A DNA stretch of 64,000 nucleotides from an uncultured Porphyromonadaceae bacterium (GTDB lineage Bacteria > Bacteroidota > Bacteroidia > Bacteroidales > UBA11471): assembly GCA_900542765.1 (NCBI GenBank), contig UQOX01000004.1, positions 1 to 64,000 of the forward strand, read 5' to 3'. The notes under the pieces were generated by a model. It saw nothing but the letters and a program-made list of their open reading frames with translations. It had not been told where the DNA came from and ran no database searches. Positions 40,176 to 59,848 of the stretch are shown one piece after another. Every line of letters begins with the position of its first letter. The stretch's first letter is position 1. A program made the position numbers and the translations under genes.

Positions 40176-40271
40176 AGCGGTTGAGTTTTTAAGCGTTTGT
40201 TATTTGTTTCTCTTGGCGTAAGTAGTATCTTTGACTTCTTGTTTGGCGACCTTGTATATATTACTATGCCG

Positions 40272-45490: not shown

Positions 45491-45698
45491 ATTAGGTTTT
45501 CAATAGGTATTAATTTTTTAAGGTAAAAAAGATTGTTATAGGTTACGGCAACAAAGGTGAGCCTTTTTTTTAGAATCCCAAAACTTTATTATATGTTTTA
45601 TAGCACTTTTTAAGTGTTGAAAATACAATCATAAAGAGTTTTGTTGCTGTAAACCAATCGGTTAATCTGTTTTTGTAAATAGATATATTTTTTAATTC

Positions 45699-51747: not shown

Positions 51748-51829
51748 ACCGGTCGCATTATGGCGCTGGTGTTGTAATGTTCTTGTTTATAAATGGTTGC
51801 CGGTTGTCTGCTACTTTCCTTATTCTCTT

Positions 51830-51910
51830 TTTGTAATTGTTTCTTAACATAATTGTTACGGTTCTATAACAGGCTTGTTATTCCCTTGTAATAAGGACCC
51901 GGTACTTTTG
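51830..51910 (+). promoter_or_regulatory. Pho-box-like array of six 11-bp-spaced heptamers plus -7 box
   Basis: Heptamers TTTGTAA, TTCTTAA, ATTGTTA, TCTATAA, CTTGTTA and CTTGTAA begin at 51830, 51841, 51852, 51863, 51874 and 51885, exactly 11 bp apart with 4-bp spacers. Position 5 (T) and position 7 (A) are invariant. The last pair, CTTGTTA-TTCC-CTTGTAA, lies over the expected -33 region of the -7 box TACTTTTG (51903-51910). This 7-4-7 layout is that of PhoB/OmpR-class sites. The TonB receptor ATG follows at 51943. The regulator is not identified. Confidence 0.6.
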
Positions 51911-51942
51911 CGCTGTCAAAATAATTATACAGGAACGACAGT

Positions 51943-54675
51943 ATGTTCAAGGCAAAAGTTATCTTATCAATTCTCATGGTTTTTGTGGCTTCCTCACACA
52001 TGGCATCGGCCTATACGTTGAGCGGAGTCGTGATAGACAAACACACGGGCGACGTGCTTATCGGTGCGACAGTTGTCGTGAAAGAGAGACCTTCGGTGGG
52101 TACGGCCGCCGGTCTCGATGGGACTTTCGAGTTGAAAGACCTTCCCCAGAATATGAAAATGACCCTTGTGGCCCGCTATTTGGGATACAACGAGGGCGAG
52201 TATGTGGTTTCTCCCGCGACAGAGAATATAAGAATCGAACTCGAACCCCAAAGCCACAGCCTCAACGAGGTGGTGGTCGAGGCCAAGTATGACCGGGCGA
52301 CCGACATGGGTGCCCGTTACATTGAGCGGAGCGCGCCTACGGTGATGAACGTGATGAGCGCCCGCAGCATCGAGATTTCACCCGATGTGACGGTGGCCAA
52401 TGTGTTGCAACGCATCTCGGGGGTGACGATGGAGCGCGAGAGCTCGGGCGAAGGCCAGTATGCCGTGTTGCGCGGTATGGACAAACGCTACAACTACACG
52501 CTGGTCAACGGCGTGAAGATACCCAGCCCCGAGAACAAGGACCGTTACATCGCCCTTGATATTTTCCCCAGCGAGATGCTCGACCGTCTCGAAGTGACCA
52601 AGTCGCTCACGCCCGACATGGAAGGCGATGCCACCGGCGGCGTGGTAAACCTCATCATGAAAGAGGCTCCCTCGTCGCGACTCTTCAACATCAATGCCTC
52701 GGTGGGTTACAACTCGCTGTTTTTCAACAATCGGTTTATGACCTTCGACCGCGGCGGGGTGATGATGGCTTCGCCGCGCGAGACCTTCGGCAAGGAGTAT
52801 CACGCCACACCCGCCGACTTTGAGCCAGGAACGGTGAGTTACAAGCAGCGTGCCGCGCTGCCCGATGTGACGTTTGGCCTCTCGTGGGGCGACCGTTACT
52901 TCGACGACCGGCTGGGTATCGTGCTCTCGGGCAGTTTCCAGAATTTCAACCGCGGCACCGAGTCGCTCTTCTTCGAAGACAACATGCCGCAGAGCGAGTC
53001 GACGGTGCGTCTCTCGTCGATGCGGGAGCGCTTCTACTCCGAGATGAAGATGCAGTATGCCCTGCACCTGAAAAGCGATTTCCGCCTCAACAAATACAAT
53101 ACCTTCTCGCTCTATGGCGTGTATGTGGGCAACAATTCGATGGGCGTGCGCGACAGCAAGATTACCGACCTCTCGCTCAACTATGCTCCCGAGAAGGGCA
53201 ATTCGCTCGAAGAGTGGGAGACCCGTTCGGTTTTTGAACGGCAGAACATCGTCTCGTTCACCCTGCAAGGCGACCACCGGCTGGGTCGTGGTGTCGAGGC
53301 CGACTGGTCGCTCGTGTGGGCCAACGCCACCAACGATGCCCCCGACCGCACCTATGTCGTGCTCGAAAACGACCGCAACAACTACGTCGACAAGGTGCGT
53401 GCCGACCACATGGAGCGCCGCTGGGAGAGCAACAGCGACCGTGACCTCTCGGCAGCTGCCAACTTCGAATGGAAGCACGATGAGGCTTTCGCCCCGATGT
53501 CGTTGAAGTGGGGCGGACTCTACCGAGACAAACGCCGCACCAACGACTATGTGTCGTACCTCTTTACCCCCGACGGCCAGCAGTATCAGGGAAGTGACTT
53601 CTCTGCCGTCACCGACATCGTGTGGAAGTTGCAGGCTTCGCAAGGTAGCGTAGGCCCGCTCGATTACGATGCCCATGAGCGCATCGGCGCGGCCTATCTC
53701 ATGTATCGTCTCGGCAACGATGTGTGGAACGTCATTGCCGGCCTCCGCGCCGAGCACACCGACCAGGGCTACCACATGTATTACCCCAACTACAAGGACG
53801 ACCCCGACGGCGGTCAGGTGTACTGGGATTTCCTGCCGTCGCTCCACCTCAAATATTCGCCCGTCGAGGCGATGAACCTGCGCCTCTCCTATTTCCGTTC
53901 GGTAAACCGTCCCGGTTTCTTCGAAGTCGTTCCCTATTCGATTATCAACGAAGACTATACCGAGTTCGGAAACAAAGACCTGAAACGGGCCCGCATCGAC
54001 AATGTCGACCTGCGTTGGGAGTGGTTCCCCTCGGTTACCGACCAGGTGATGGTGGGCGTTTTCTACAAGAACATACAGGACCCTATCGAGTATGCCTATT
54101 ACTCGGTCAACAACCGGCAGTTCGGTTACGGCCCGGCCAACCTGGGTAACGCCCGCAACGTGGGTGTCGAGGTCGATGTCATCAAATATTTCCGCTACAT
54201 CGGCATCAAGGCCAACTACACCTACACCCATTCGCAGATTACCACCCCCAAGACGCTTTATTCCCGCGAGAGCGGTTCGCTCCAACGCCTCTCGGTCGAC
54301 CAGACCCGCCCGCTCGTAGGCCAGGCTCCGCATGTGGCCAACCTCTCGCTCCTCTATAAGAATGCCGAGAAAGGCTGGGACGCCCAATTCTCTTTCTCCT
54401 ACACCGGTGAGAAGATGGCCGTCGTGTCGCACTATTACGAGGCCGACTACTGGGACAGTCCCGTCTTCTCACTCGATGCTTCGGTCGAGAAAAAGCTGGG
54501 TAAGTTCTCGCTTTACGCCAAGGCGACCAATCTGCTCAACACCCATTACAAACGCTACATCAAGACCACCAATGCCTATAACTACGACTTCCCGTCGCAG
54601 GGCCAGGACCGAACCCTTATTCGGGATAACTACTCCGGCATAGGATTCATGGTGGGCGTGCGCTATAAACTGTGA
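51943..54675 (+). CDS. TonB-dependent outer-membrane receptor (non-SusC type)
   Basis: A 910-residue receptor: signal peptide 1-23, a carboxypeptidase-regulatory-like domain (about 25-105, LSGVVIDKHTGDVLIGATVVV), a plug (about 110-240) with TVANVLQRISGVTME and VLRGMDKRYNYTLVNGVKIPS, and a beta-barrel ending in SGIGFMVGVRYKL. It lacks the SusC-specific signature and has no SusD partner. The plug resembles the receptors often paired with exported beta-helix lipoproteins. It is the first gene of an operon with a beta-helix lipoprotein and an acid-phosphatase-like protein, behind a Pho-box-like promoter. A phosphorylated ligand is inferred. Confidence 0.92.
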   Translation: MFKAKVILSILMVFVASSHMASAYTLSGVVIDKHTGDVLIGATVVVKERPSVGTAAGLDGTFELKDLPQNMKMTLVARYLGYNEGEYVVSPATENIRIELEPQSHSLNEVVVEAKYDRATDMGARYIERSAPTVMNVMSARSIEISPDVTVANVLQRISGVTMERESSGEGQYAVLRGMDKRYNYTLVNGVKIPSPENKDRYIALDIFPSEMLDRLEVTKSLTPDMEGDATGGVVNLIMKEAPSSRLFNINASVGYNSLFFNNRFMTFDRGGVMMASPRETFGKEYHATPADFEPGTVSYKQRAALPDVTFGLSWGDRYFDDRLGIVLSGSFQNFNRGTESLFFEDNMPQSESTVRLSSMRERFYSEMKMQYALHLKSDFRLNKYNTFSLYGVYVGNNSMGVRDSKITDLSLNYAPEKGNSLEEWETRSVFERQNIVSFTLQGDHRLGRGVEADWSLVWANATNDAPDRTYVVLENDRNNYVDKVRADHMERRWESNSDRDLSAAANFEWKHDEAFAPMSLKWGGLYRDKRRTNDYVSYLFTPDGQQYQGSDFSAVTDIVWKLQASQGSVGPLDYDAHERIGAAYLMYRLGNDVWNVIAGLRAEHTDQGYHMYYPNYKDDPDGGQVYWDFLPSLHLKYSPVEAMNLRLSYFRSVNRPGFFEVVPYSIINEDYTEFGNKDLKRARIDNVDLRWEWFPSVTDQVMVGVFYKNIQDPIEYAYYSVNNRQFGYGPANLGNARNVGVEVDVIKYFRYIGIKANYTYTHSQITTPKTLYSRESGSLQRLSVDQTRPLVGQAPHVANLSLLYKNAEKGWDAQFSFSYTGEKMAVVSHYYEADYWDSPVFSLDASVEKKLGKFSLYAKATNLLNTHYKRYIKTTNAYNYDFPSQGQDRTLIRDNYSGIGFMVGVRYKL

Positions 54676-54729: not shown

Positions 54730-56040
54730 ATGAAACTGACAAAAATCATGGCAATGTTTTTTGCCGCAACCACTATCTTTGCAACCGCGTGCTCCGAGGA
54801 GGACAAGAACAACGACGGTATCGATTCCGGTTCCAACAACCTGCCGGGCAATGTCACTGTTTGGCCCAAGGACACCACGGTAACACTTACCGACCATTAC
54901 CTCGTCGATGAGGGACAGGTGCTTGTCGTCGAAGATGGGGTTACCGTGATAGCGGCCAATACCGAGGTGAAACCCGAAATCGTCGTCCTCGGCAGCATGT
55001 ACTGCCTGGGTACCGAAGAGAATCCCGTTACCTTCACCGTTGAAGCCTCGTCGAAGGGGAACCGCTTCTCCCGCAACTGGGGCGGCATCATCTGCGGATA
55101 TGATTGTCCCGAACTGGTATTGCTCCACACTGTTGTCGAGTATGGAGGGGCATTGACGACCGAAAACTCGCTCTCGTTCCGCAACCAGCTCTTCAAGACC
55201 GAGACCGGCGAAGGCGTCCCTGCCGTACACTTCTGTAATCGTAATGGTAAAATGCTGATTCAGAACTGCGTGTTCCGCAACAACGCCGAGGACCAGATTT
55301 ACATCACCGGCGGCGAGTCGATTGTGGCCAACAACTACTTCATCTGCAACGGTGAAGAGGGTGGCGAAGCCATCAACTACAAGTCCGACTGCAAGGCCGA
55401 CATCGCCTACAACCTCATCTATGATGCCAACACCAACGGCTTCAAACTCTCCAACTCGGGATTTACCGATGTGCAGTCGCATCTCTACTGTTACAACAAC
55501 ACGATTGTGAACAGCGGTTGGCGTCGTCCCAAGAAAAAAGGCGGTTCGATATGGCTCGAAGAGGGTATCTATGCCGAGATGTACAACAACATGGTATATG
55601 ATTGCCGCTGGGGCCTGAAACACGATACCGAGGCTTTCGAGGACGAGAAGTGCGTGATTACGCCCAACTACTATTTTGCCTCGACCGCCGAAGGCGTGGA
55701 GCAGATGCAAGCCGATGAGAGTGAAGGCATTCTCAATGGTGCCAATGACATCATGAGCGCCACGGCCGGCGACAAAGACCCGCTCTTTGTGAACTTTACC
55801 CGCCAAAGCGACATTAACATCAATGTCGGTGCCAATGAGGCCGGCGCACCCCAAGCGTGGAACGATGCCTGGGATTTCCACCTCGCAGCAGGTTCACCGG
55901 CTCTCACGGGCGGCAACACCTCGTTTGCCCGCCATTATGCCAGTGGCCTGACCTTCGAGGGGCTCGAAGGAATCTATTCGCAGACGACCTTTGTTTCGCC
56001 CGCCCCCTCGGCCTTCTTCGGCGCTTTCGGAAGTAAATAA
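54730..56040 (+). CDS. Right-handed beta-helix-like lipoprotein
   Basis: A 436-residue lipoprotein (lipobox FATAC, Cys21, followed by SEEDKNND). The body has short recurring turns typical of a parallel beta-helix: VLVVEDGVTVIAANTEV, NGKMLIQNCVFRNN, ESIVANNYFICN, KADIAYNLIYDANTNGFKLSNS, LYCYNNTIVNSG, YAEMYNNMVYDC. No lyase residues could be assigned. Its place between a TonB receptor and a phosphatase suggests a surface-located binding partner of the receptor. It starts 54 bp after the receptor and ends 26 bp before the phosphatase. Confidence 0.78.
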   Translation: MKLTKIMAMFFAATTIFATACSEEDKNNDGIDSGSNNLPGNVTVWPKDTTVTLTDHYLVDEGQVLVVEDGVTVIAANTEVKPEIVVLGSMYCLGTEENPVTFTVEASSKGNRFSRNWGGIICGYDCPELVLLHTVVEYGGALTTENSLSFRNQLFKTETGEGVPAVHFCNRNGKMLIQNCVFRNNAEDQIYITGGESIVANNYFICNGEEGGEAINYKSDCKADIAYNLIYDANTNGFKLSNSGFTDVQSHLYCYNNTIVNSGWRRPKKKGGSIWLEEGIYAEMYNNMVYDCRWGLKHDTEAFEDEKCVITPNYYFASTAEGVEQMQADESEGILNGANDIMSATAGDKDPLFVNFTRQSDININVGANEAGAPQAWNDAWDFHLAAGSPALTGGNTSFARHYASGLTFEGLEGIYSQTTFVSPAPSAFFGAFGSK

Positions 56041-56066
56041 CCATCATTCACTTGAAATACCGTCTT

Positions 56067-57014
56067 ATGAAAATCAAACATCTGTTTTATGCCCTTTTGC
56101 TGTCGGGCTGCTTTGCCGGCGCTGCTGTGGCTCAGACCTCGGTCGAAGTACCTGCCATAAGCGAAGAGGCCCACTCGTTCATCGTCGCCAATGACCTCGG
56201 CCGCAACGGCTATTACGAGCAGAAACCCATTGCCGAGCTCATGGGGCAGTTGGCCGAAAATGTCGACATCGAGTTTGTCGCCGCTTTGGGCGACGTGCAT
56301 CACTTTGAGGGCGTGGCTTCGGTCGACGACCCGTTGTGGCTCACCAACTACGAACTCATCTATGCACACCCCGAATTGATGATCGATTGGTATGCCATAC
56401 TCGGCAACCACGAATATCGTGGTAATACCCAGGCTGTTCTCGATTACACCAAGGTGAGCCGTCGCTGGTCGACCGAGGGCCGTTACTACGCCATCGAGCA
56501 GGAAGCCGGCGACAACGAAAAGATGCTCCTTGTCTTTATCGATACCACCCCCCTCATCGACAAGTATCGCGAAGACAGTGAGAAGTATGCCGATGCCGGG
56601 AAGCAAAACCTGAAAAAGCAGCTCTCCTGGATAGAGAAAACGCTGAAAAACAGCACGGCCAAATGGAAAATCGTGATGGGTCATCACCCGGTCTTTGCCG
56701 ATACCTACAAAGGCGAGTCGGAGCGTCTCGATATGCAGGAGCGCATCAAACCGCTGCTCGATGCTTACGGCGTGGACCTCTACCTGTGTGGCCATATACA
56801 CAATTTCCAGCACATACGTCCTGCCGGCAGTGAGGTGCAGTATGTGGTCAATTCGTCGGGTTCGCTGGCGCGTGATGTCAAGCCCACCGAGGGGACGCTC
56901 TTTTGCAGTTCCGATGCCGGATTTTCGGTTGTCTCGGCCGACGATGATACGTTGACGATGTATATGATAAACGCCGAAGGAAAGATTATATATAGTTTCT
57001 CGATCAAGAAATAA
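56067..57014 (+). CDS. Purple-acid-phosphatase (ACP5/TRAP)-like metallophosphoesterase
   Basis: A 315-residue exported enzyme; either a signal peptide ending AVAQ or a lipobox LLSGC (Cys15) is possible. It follows the small purple acid phosphatase plan: ANDLGRNG (41-48), GDVHHFEGV (75-83), GNHEYRGNTQAVLDYTKVSRRW (113-134, in parts), GHHPVF (205-210) and GHIH (242-245). At the position of the purple-colour tyrosine (GDNFYFTGV in animal TRAP) it has His79. Probably a periplasmic or surface phosphomonoesterase. ATG 56067 was preferred over TTG 56052. It is the last gene of the operon and has a terminator 49 bp downstream. Confidence 0.87.
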   Translation: MKIKHLFYALLLSGCFAGAAVAQTSVEVPAISEEAHSFIVANDLGRNGYYEQKPIAELMGQLAENVDIEFVAALGDVHHFEGVASVDDPLWLTNYELIYAHPELMIDWYAILGNHEYRGNTQAVLDYTKVSRRWSTEGRYYAIEQEAGDNEKMLLVFIDTTPLIDKYREDSEKYADAGKQNLKKQLSWIEKTLKNSTAKWKIVMGHHPVFADTYKGESERLDMQERIKPLLDAYGVDLYLCGHIHNFQHIRPAGSEVQYVVNSSGSLARDVKPTEGTLFCSSDAGFSVVSADDDTLTMYMINAEGKIIYSFSIKK

Positions 57015-57598: not shown

Positions 57599-58675
57599 TT
57601 ATTTGCCCAATGCGTTTTCTACGGCTTCGTCGATGGCTTTTCCGTGCAGGTCGCGGGCGATGATGTAGCCTTCGGGCGAGAAGAGGATTACTTGCGGAAT
57701 GCCGGTGAATCCGTAGATGTTGGCCGGAATGTCTTGTGCGTCGATGATTTGCGGCCATGGCATCTGTTCTTCTTCCAGTGCTTTGAGGGTGGCATCGCGT
57801 TTATCCCATACGGCAACGCTGACTACCTCAAAGTTCTCTCCTCCATATTCTTTGTAGAGCTCTTTGATGCCGGGTATGCCGCCACGGCAGGGAGCGCACC
57901 ACGATGCCCAGAAATCGACCAGGACATATTTGCCTTTGCCCACATAGTCGGAGAGCGAAACGGGGGTACCGTCGATATTGCCGTTCTCGATGGTGAAGTC
58001 GACGAAGCGGCTGCCGGGACGGTTGGCTTTCATGCCGTTGTTTACGGTTACCGATTTTTGTATGACGGCACTTTCCTTGATGCTGGCGGGAACATGGCTC
58101 AGAGCCTCGTCAAACTCGTCGGTGCCTATGGCGTAACTCAGCCATTCTGAGACGCAATAATCTCCCACGGAGGTGCCGGCATATTCCAGGGCGGCTTCTT
58201 TGTAAATCATGCGCAAGGTGTCGTTGCAAGCTGCGCTGATGCCGTCGCGTGTTTTTTCGAAGTCGGGTTTTTTGGCGTCGAGGGCAAGGATTTGGAATGT
58301 GGTCGAAAATTGCAACGAGATGTCGCGGGCCTTTATGTTGATGAGGGAATCGTTTTGCTCGGTGCCGCTGGTCTCATAAATGATGTTGAATACCGGGTTG
58401 ATCGAGAGTCTTATCTCTCCCGGTTCGATGATGAGAATGGCCGATTTGCCGTCGCCATAGTTGGCCTGGGCGACGTAGCTTTTACTGATTTCACCCTCGA
58501 ACAGGGCTTTCCCGTCGGTAAAGACAGTGCTGTCGACGACTTCATTGGTGAAGTAGTTGAGCAGGACGATGGGGGTGTTGTCCGCGACGTTTTCGTAGTC
58601 GACAGCGACCCGATAAGGTTTGCTGCATGCTGTGAGCAGTAGTGCCGAGGCAAAGATAAATAGAGCTTTTTTCAT
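57599..58675 (-). CDS. TlpA-like thioredoxin lipoprotein, distal copy
   Basis: A 358-residue lipoprotein (lipobox LLTAC, Cys17). An N-terminal DUF4369-like beta domain (about 20-110) and a helical linker (about 120-215) precede a TlpA domain (about 220-355) with FWASWCAPCRGG and GIPQVILFSPEG. A periplasmic thiol-disulfide oxidoreductase. Its C-terminal domain is nearly the same as that of the neighbouring gene, whereas the N-terminal parts differ, marking a tandem duplication. The active site is CAPC here and CGPC in the neighbour. Last gene of the operon. Confidence 0.88.
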   Translation of the reverse strand: MKKALFIFASALLLTACSKPYRVAVDYENVADNTPIVLLNYFTNEVVDSTVFTDGKALFEGEISKSYVAQANYGDGKSAILIIEPGEIRLSINPVFNIIYETSGTEQNDSLINIKARDISLQFSTTFQILALDAKKPDFEKTRDGISAACNDTLRMIYKEAALEYAGTSVGDYCVSEWLSYAIGTDEFDEALSHVPASIKESAVIQKSVTVNNGMKANRPGSRFVDFTIENGNIDGTPVSLSDYVGKGKYVLVDFWASWCAPCRGGIPGIKELYKEYGGENFEVVSVAVWDKRDATLKALEEEQMPWPQIIDAQDIPANIYGFTGIPQVILFSPEGYIIARDLHGKAIDEAVENALGK

Positions 58676-58750
58676 GATGTGATGATGTTTTTTTTGAGGA
58701 GAGGGCGGCTCTGTTTAGGGATCCACACCCTCTCGGTGTTATTCATTGGG

Positions 58751-59848
58751 TTACTTTTCCATGGTGGAGGCGATGAATTGTTTCATGCTATCGCCGCGCA
58801 GGTCGCGGGCAAGAATGGTGCCGTCGGGCCCGAAGAGCATGATTTGGGGTATGCCGCTGATGCCGTAGAGGTTGGTCGGTATCTGTCCCGCGTCGATGAT
58901 TTGCGGCCACGGCAACTGTTCCTCTTCGATGGCTTTGAGCGTGTCGTCGCGTTTATCCCATACGGCGACACTCACGATTTCGAAGTTTTCACCGGCAAAT
59001 TGCTTGTAAATCGCTTTCAGGTTGGGTGTCTCGGCACGGCACGGGCCGCACCACGATGCCCAGAAATCGACCAGCACATATTTGCCTTTGCCCACATAGT
59101 CGGAGAGGGAGACCGACGTCCCGTCGATGTTGCCGTTGATGATGGTGAAGTCTGTAAACATCGAGCCGACTTTGGTCGCATTCAATTTTTTGTTCTCATC
59201 GATGCAGCGTGCTATCATCGGGTATTTGAGGTCGTCGCTGGTGACGAGAGCCGCGGTTTTGTCAAATTCGTCGCCGCCGACCAGCATGTTGAGCCAGTTG
59301 GCCAATGCGTAGGTGGCTACGCGACTGCCCGGCATGGCTTCGACGTAATGGGCCGAGATGTAGCCGAAAGCCTCCATCATCTCTTTTTGCAGGGCAATGT
59401 CTTGTTCTTCTGTGCCGGTGCCGCTTTCGGCCAGGGCCTGATGGCGGGCAAAGAATTTTTCTTGTATTTCCTTGACGTCGGAGTAGAAACTTTGCAGGGA
59501 GTCATTTTGCGGGGTTCCCGCAACGGTCCGGTTTGGAGGGTCGATGGTGATATTTCCCCCTTCGAGAATGAAGACGGCGCTTTCGCCATATGGGGAGTCG
59601 ACAAAGAGCTGGCAGAGCTTGGCGTCGTTGCATCTCCCTTTGAAGATGGCTTTGTCATTGCTTACGACGACGCTGTCCAGGGGCTTTTCGGTCGTGAGGT
59701 CGATGATAAATGCCTGTTTGCCGTTGCTGGTGGCATCGCATTTGACGGTGACGGTGTACTGCGGGGTGCAGGCCGAGAAGAGCAGCAGGGCGAGTCCCCC
59801 GATAAAACCTTTGGCCGCTTGTGTCCGTAGGGAAAGAATGGGCTTCAT
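58751..59848 (-). CDS. TlpA-like thioredoxin lipoprotein, proximal copy
   Basis: A 365-residue lipoprotein (lipobox LFSAC, Cys27, after a basic N-terminus). N-terminal DUF4369-like domain (about 30-120), helical linker, then a TlpA domain (about 230-363) with FWASWCGPCRAE and GIPQIMLFGPDG. The stretch NIDGTSVSLSDYVGKGKYVL and the following roughly 100 residues match the distal copy closely. It starts 11 bp after thiL, so it belongs to the lpxK operon. Confidence 0.88.
   Translation of the reverse strand: MKPILSLRTQAAKGFIGGLALLLFSACTPQYTVTVKCDATSNGKQAFIIDLTTEKPLDSVVVSNDKAIFKGRCNDAKLCQLFVDSPYGESAVFILEGGNITIDPPNRTVAGTPQNDSLQSFYSDVKEIQEKFFARHQALAESGTGTEEQDIALQKEMMEAFGYISAHYVEAMPGSRVATYALANWLNMLVGGDEFDKTAALVTSDDLKYPMIARCIDENKKLNATKVGSMFTDFTIINGNIDGTSVSLSDYVGKGKYVLVDFWASWCGPCRAETPNLKAIYKQFAGENFEIVSVAVWDKRDDTLKAIEEEQLPWPQIIDAGQIPTNLYGISGIPQIMLFGPDGTILARDLRGDSMKQFIASTMEK

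Follow-up and report, generated by a model that had tools for sequence, protein, structure and literature searches.

A candidate multi-unit Pho box preceding a SusD-less TonB receptor, beta-helix lipoprotein and phosphatase operon in an uncultured Bacteroidales bacterium

The six TTGTWA-like heptamers in front of a TonB-dependent receptor operon of this uncultured bacterium probably represent a multi-unit Pho box (at a rough probability of 0.8), with the operon behind them acting as a PhoB-activated, SusD-less system for the scavenging of phosphate esters. An earlier note on the window, i.e., the whole stretch of 64,000 nucleotides analysed here, had already read the heptamers as likely sites of PhoB or of another OmpR-class regulator, and the comparison with related genomes renders this PhoB reading well supported at the level of sequence.

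Results

All six heptamers proposed earlier were recovered at exactly their predicted coordinates on the plus strand, with an exact period of 11 bp: TTTGTAA at 51830, TTCTTAA at 51841, ATTGTTA at 51852, TCTATAA at 51863, CTTGTTA at 51874 and CTTGTAA at 51885, the second and fourth being degenerate units. Together they form the proposed Pho box with the consensus TTGTWA(C) at 51830..51891 (+), displaying the direct repeats of 7 conserved and 4 variable bases known from Pho boxes (PMC4415409). The units agree with TTGTWA in 32 of 36 positions at period 11, compared to 23 for the next best period of 12 (periods 8-14 tried). As judged from 2000 dinucleotide shuffles of the region 51780-51943, the consensus score at period 11 was never reached, nor was the consensus-free score at this period equalled by any shuffle at period 10, 11 or 12. 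A -7-type promoter box (TACTTTTG, 51903..51910, +), assigned by the -33/-7 promoter consensus of Bacteroidota, follows at a distance of 17 bp, counted from the TTG of the proximal unit. A scan for sigma-70 promoters, a type wrong for the task, returned 2 against an expected 2.9.

The TTATT/AATAA symmetry that the earlier note had offered as a possible dimer site starting at 51879 actually occupies 51878-51882 and 51890-51894, and it was discarded as a dimer site, being lost in a 78%-identical orthologue (L092). An additional partial run with 15/18 matches over three units lies 5' of the array at 51772-51805, out of phase with it. Weaker 11-bp runs of TTGTWA-like words are also found at 45564-45650 (14/18 over three units), between phospholipase-D-type and glycogen-branching-type genes, and at 40186-40240 (20/30 over five).

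The postulated gene order of receptor, lipoprotein and phosphatase proved right. The receptor (51943..54675, +, 910 aa) consists of CarboxypepD_reg-like, plug and barrel domains, as identified by domain search, and is followed by a lipoprotein of 436 aa (54730..56040, +), for which a right-handed beta-helix is indicated by PF13229, an AF2 model and fold matches, in addition to a lipobox. The sequence SEED directly follows the lipobox Cys and presumably serves as a surface-export signal, from which a surface location of the protein is predicted. No SusD-type lipoprotein accompanies the receptor, its neighbour being a beta-helix protein without any SusD family among its matches, and the operon differs in this from SusCD-type systems and from phosphate utilisation systems (PUS) of that type; the combination of a TBDT with a lipoprotein of pectin-lyase fold corresponds to a PUS with an FI/FII-type lipoprotein, as judged from domains and fold only. 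Sequence searches of the PDB with the lipoprotein and the receptor yielded no matches, and Foldseek and VIA-align recognized only the general beta-helix fold in the lipoprotein, which is shared with pectate and alginate lyases.

The last gene (56052..57014, +, 320 aa) starts with TTG, with an in-frame ATG at 56067, and encodes a TRAP/purple-acid-phosphatase-like metallophosphatase according to PF00149, PDB matches and motifs. Its earlier designation as purple-acid-phosphatase-like was borne out, since it is of the calcineurin type and its best solved relatives are tartrate-resistant and purple acid phosphatases (E ~1e-30). The metal ligands D, GD, GNH, GH and GHxH, the motif set of TRAP/purple acid phosphatases, are present as read in 23 proteins, 2 of them being cut before the last two motifs. 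The Tyr ligand of the GDxxY motif, which accounts for the purple colour, is replaced by His in 23/23 of these proteins, and the phosphatase should therefore not be purple. A gene for a beta-propeller phytase (PF02333) is absent from the window operon. Beyond the operon, two adjacent and visibly similar thioredoxin-fold genes are located on the minus strand (57599-58675 and 58751-59848), the former containing DUF4369 and AhpC/TSA in a Pfam run on that gene; the pair at 57599-59848 is likely a tandem duplication.

Conservation of the array was followed over 80 named loci. For the 19 Bacteroidales-type upstream regions outside the genus (L096-L114), the median score at period 11 was 17.5, compared to 0.3, 1.9, -0.0 and 1.9 at periods 9, 10, 12 and 13; 16 of the 19 reached p<=0.05 against shuffles, and 15 exceeded the 95th percentile of 135 control upstream regions. 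TTGTWA words in L091-L114 are spaced within the range of 6-35 bp by 11 (13 times), 22 (14 times) and 33 bp (6 times), by 19 and 30 bp once each, and by no other distance. L092, the orthologue from G002, also contains six units with the fourth one degenerate as in the window, and word and register persist at receptor identities down to ~51-57%. The helical phase to the promoter appears fixed, as known for Pho boxes: in 25/25 receptor promoters (the window plus L091-L114), the -7 box and the promoter-proximal unit in the best run are 17 or 28 bp apart, out of 22 registers examined; these promoters are related to each other, 6/25 belong to the training genus, and 5 score <5. Among 17 other promoters of phosphate-type genes, 12 show this 17/28-bp phase and 5 do not; three of the 12 (from G027, G029 and G044) score <11 and carry little weight, and a looser -7 pattern was used for part of the set.

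The expectation of the earlier note that orthologous operons would share the periodic heptamers held for Bacteroidales and failed outside this order. In 55 upstream regions from L115-L170 (L148 being left out for a too short upstream sequence), period 11 is not special, with a median of 5.1 compared to 4.7, 5.0, 3.9 and 2.1 at the other periods and 15/55 at p<=0.05, and the 11-bp array was consequently dismissed as a trait of the whole receptor family. Outside Bacteroidales, the phytase-type operons have a different element in common, approximately TGTAACGCT-GTTNCC-TTTTTGTAACG (e.g., L156, L166, L129 and L125), which recurs in the receptor upstream regions of L115-L170 at spacings of 19 and 31 bp, not 11, and represents a putative second regulatory signal.

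The third gene of the operon differs between these groups. Counting only loci with >2.8 kb of downstream sequence, by which 7/24 of L091-L114 were dropped (in 3 of these the PAP-like gene is visible, and the other 4 stop short of its place), the lipoprotein is present in 17/17 of L091-L114 and 56/56 of L115-L170, whereas a PAP-like enzyme comes next in 17/17 of the former, Bacteroidales set and in 2/56 of the latter (L116 and L155). Instead, 53/56 of L115-L170 carry a beta-propeller phytase, 8/56 contain a longer purple-acid-phosphatase gene in addition, and L119 has neither enzyme; examples of these loci were also run through Pfam. Two changes of enzyme label suffice on the midpoint-rooted receptor tree, from which 9/85 rows without label were dropped, and none of 500 shuffles was as low. 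In G036, a member of the same order, the lipoprotein, a beta-propeller phytase and a TRAP-like phosphatase are encoded in one row (L290 8176-11920, in operon orientation). As judged from these sequences, the operon is a conserved pair of receptor and beta-helix lipoprotein with an exchangeable third enzyme, an arrangement newly recognized in this analysis. The lipoprotein model matched 138/295 genomes of a class-wide sample, mostly in part, and 11/295 at E<1e-70; among the best 22 lipoprotein loci, the receptor adjoins in 20, a phytase in 6 and a PAP-like enzyme in 3 (within ~1.5 kb).

Some of these loci show further features. The G036 row is preceded by only a 125-aa receptor-like N-terminal piece. 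The longer purple acid phosphatase follows the phytase in L136, L128 and six other loci (Pedobacter, Chitinophaga), and L136 also contains a gene of the di-haem cytochrome c peroxidase type, which recalls the low-phosphate MauG-like gene of F. johnsoniae. L115 (CAMDBI010000011.1) is titled Bacteroides fragilis, groups with a Bacteroidetes bin and carries the phytase version, and its species label looks doubtful.

Regulators and further copies of the element were sought in G001, the genome nearest to the window (69% of sampled 31-mers shared) and not the window's own. Curated models were used, with NF053854 and NF053855 serving for the PhoB/PhoR pair. Two of the regulators of G001 exceed the cut-off of 270 bits of the Bacteroidota PhoB model, with scores of 354.9 and 356.5, namely the orphan at L171 5334-6089 and the one at L174 12793-13485, and a third passes the RprY model. 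One PhoB paralogue sits in a phoB-phoR-PiT row, where the kinase passes the PhoR model (545.3, cut-off 500) and PiT is named by sequence only. PhoB and PhoR are therefore both encoded in G001, as would be expected for a genome using Pho boxes. PhoB is also present in the same-genus genomes G004 and G005 (the latter cut by the contig end), where it was named by resemblance; G004 shows one PhoB-like regulator plus RprY. In G006 the array is kept, PhoB was not found, and RprY is the only regulator of the OmpR class found there. This absence is read as an assembly gap because the gene adjoining phoB is missing as well, and on this ground it was set aside as counter-evidence.

A triple repeat with <=2 mismatches occurs at 6 places in G001, compared to 1 in the backwards control. 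Three of the 6 belong to the array of the receptor operon, and the other three precede a PhoB paralogue, a PiT and OprO/P porin, and a gene read as metallophosphoesterase that lies 5' of ppk and an exopolyphosphatase-like gene; other phosphate genes of this genome thus share the element. The best triple repeat outside the operon is located directly upstream of the orphan PhoB paralogue (phoB2), where the match is better when read on the opposite strand. At <=3 mismatches there are 22 places versus 20 in the control, and the bulk of them should therefore be noise, although pstSCAB-phoU has one such place with 3 mismatches 44 bp ahead of the pstS frame. A simple gene caller puts nine of the 22 within frames, among them a ppk-side frame antisense to the metallophosphoesterase-like gene and a Ca-ATPase frame that starts too early according to our own reading of the sequence. 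The strict two-copy pattern matches the receptor promoter alone. The genome scan suggested by the earlier note was thereby answered in part: the best outside matches do precede phosphate genes, but at 3 mismatches the genome is no richer in them than the control. Repeat-like places also occur ahead of P-type cation ATPase genes (L174 ~5647 in G001, L210 ~12036 in G007 and L208 6557 in G002), possibly representing a cation arm of the regulon.

From the receptor promoters of the window, G002 and G006, 15 units were combined into a matrix, with which 28 stretches from nine genomes were scanned; L171 and L172 contain motif-picked places, L173-L175 motif-picked ones beside gene-picked ones. In the gene-picked stretches, for which a regulator or PhoU gene was the sole reason of choice, seven places reach a score of >=19, of which four precede phosphate genes: a PiT beside a PhoB-like regulator in G003 (33.7) and G015 (20.6), the phoB2 orthologue of G007 (31.3) and pst of G028 (14.8 on the strand of pst itself, 21.6 on the other). 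The remaining three precede non-phosphate genes: in G002 one that resembles cation ATPases (23.1), in G007 one that resembles Ca-ATPases (19.2, opposite strand), and in G044 one for a response regulator (19.1). For G003, G007 and G015, the regulator names come from resemblance, not from a model run, and in both phoB2 cases the stronger match is opposite to the gene strand. Over nine pstS loci, pst or porin-pst is preceded by a matrix place in 5/9 order members (G028 14.8, G041 19.6, G030 14.2, G009 15.0 and G035 21.5), the matrix found none ahead of pst in 3/9 (G027, G044 and G046), and in G029 the place lies at the stretch end with a score of 10.2.

Discussion

The array may be understood as follows. 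Under phosphate starvation PhoR would phosphorylate PhoB, whose effector domains are predicted to bind head-to-tail, one per 11-bp unit, on a single face of the helix, with the promoter-proximal unit recruiting RNA polymerase from its fixed helical phase to the -7 box. The proteins induced in this way would act in series, with the surface lipoprotein binding a phosphorylated organic compound, the TonB-dependent receptor importing it and the TRAP-like phosphatase freeing phosphate for uptake by Pst/PiT.

The word differs from the E. coli Pho box in reading TTGTWAC instead of CTGTCAT and in being repeated in six units, and the array precedes a -7 TAnnTTTG box, not a -10 hexamer. The PhoB/PhoP Pho box resembles the array in its 7+4 bases, its 11-bp repeats and the pst, phoB-type and phosphatase genes downstream (PMC4415409). 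In B. fragilis, gel shifts show binding of PhoB to the pstC promoter, and the expression of pst, ppk, exopolyphosphatase and phosphatases is PhoB-dependent; the term "consensus" is absent from the paper on this PhoRB regulon, which names no TonB receptor (0 occurrences of TonB; PMC3547664). In the literature listings searched and in passages of that paper, a TTGTWAC Pho box consensus for Bacteroidales was not found, and PhoP of Riemerella prefers TTTAACA (PMC9603813).

The closest counterpart of the receptor pair is PUSIV of F. johnsoniae, in which Fjoh_0545 is a TBDT with PF07715, PF13715 and PF14905, as in the window, and Fjoh_0546 an FII lipoprotein of pectin-lyase fold; their values of 8.02 and 9.91 at phosphate depletion (Table 1, first expression column) are taken here as log2 changes (PMC8115612). 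The likeness of these proteins and of the FI/FII lipoproteins to the window genes is one of domains and fold, and Fjoh_0545/0546 are located inside the phoBR cluster, whereas the window operon would be regulated from afar and includes a TRAP-like phosphatase. The phoB-TBDT-lipoprotein order of F. johnsoniae was looked for in 17 wider loci of distant lipoprotein relatives, with PhoB matches in 4, all of them generic (31-33% identical). A TBDT adjoining a phytase in Citromicrobium was taken as a phytic acid receptor (PMC3400609); it shares with the window the position beside a phosphate-releasing enzyme, but the third gene of the window encodes a metallophosphatase, not a phytase, and a beta-helix lipoprotein is added. 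ElpS of Caulobacter is likewise a surface lipoprotein of phosphate starvation tied to phosphatase activity, a likeness by description (PMC2996285), and phytases of the PAP type have been mentioned for Flavobacteriia (PMC12406696).

Several other explanations deserve consideration. Since 7-4-7 repeats are common to the OmpR class, another such regulator, most likely RprY, might read the array with only an indirect link to phosphate, for which the case of G006 may be quoted; this seems improbable, as the remaining places precede phosphate genes, PhoB is found in G001, G004 and G005 of the same genus, and G006 is also devoid of the gene adjoining phoB. Alternatively, the orphan PhoB paralogue might be the only regulator served by the array, with a regulon of its own apart from PhoR-PhoB, in line with the presence of two PhoB paralogues in G001 and the strongest outside place ahead of the orphan one; such a division is unlikely, because like arrays are also kept by relatives from the genus and order in which no second PhoB was seen, such as G004. 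Chance periodicity or phased bending would find a suitable background in an intergenic region of 35% G+C within a window of 53%, but has hardly any credit left: chance periodicity was ruled out by the 0/2000 shuffles, and word and register survive the divergence of the receptors.

A more serious competitor accepts the control by PhoB and assigns another substrate to the system, i.e., phosphorylated glycans, nucleotides, sugar phosphates or phospholipid head groups. TRAP-like enzymes have broad substrate ranges, and pectate and alginate lyases share the fold of the lipoprotein; moreover, cell-wall phosphorus has been proposed as the source for FI/FII lipoproteins (PMC8115612). These arguments bring this alternative close to even odds, against which stand the phytase as third gene in 53/56 orthologues of the non-Bacteroidales set and the phytase beside the PAP-like enzyme in G036. 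Because the third gene of the relatives is phytate-digesting, the operon probably scavenges organic phosphate, and inositol phosphates are favoured because phytase holds the third place in orthologous operons and both enzymes occur together in G036; the predicted substrate is perhaps an inositol phosphate, at slightly less than an even chance.

Returning to the reading of the array as a Pho box, a usable model for Bacteroidales would consist of TTGTWAC repeats at 11 bp with a spacing of 17+11n bp between the -7 box and the proximal unit. The hitherto uncharacterised receptor/lipoprotein pair, found across Bacteroidota, becomes tied to organic phosphate via two unrelated enzymes. More speculatively, gut Bacteroidales might possess an outer-membrane system dedicated to inositol phosphates, namely phytate and the products of its breakdown, built from the shared Bacteroidota pair of receptor and beta-helix lipoprotein, with phytase and non-purple TRAP-like phosphatase exchanged for each other, and with up to six PhoB sites in helical phase wiring phytate capture into the phosphate-starvation response. 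If the substrate is indeed an inositol phosphate, the operon would provide gut commensals with an outer-membrane route to tap dietary phytate.
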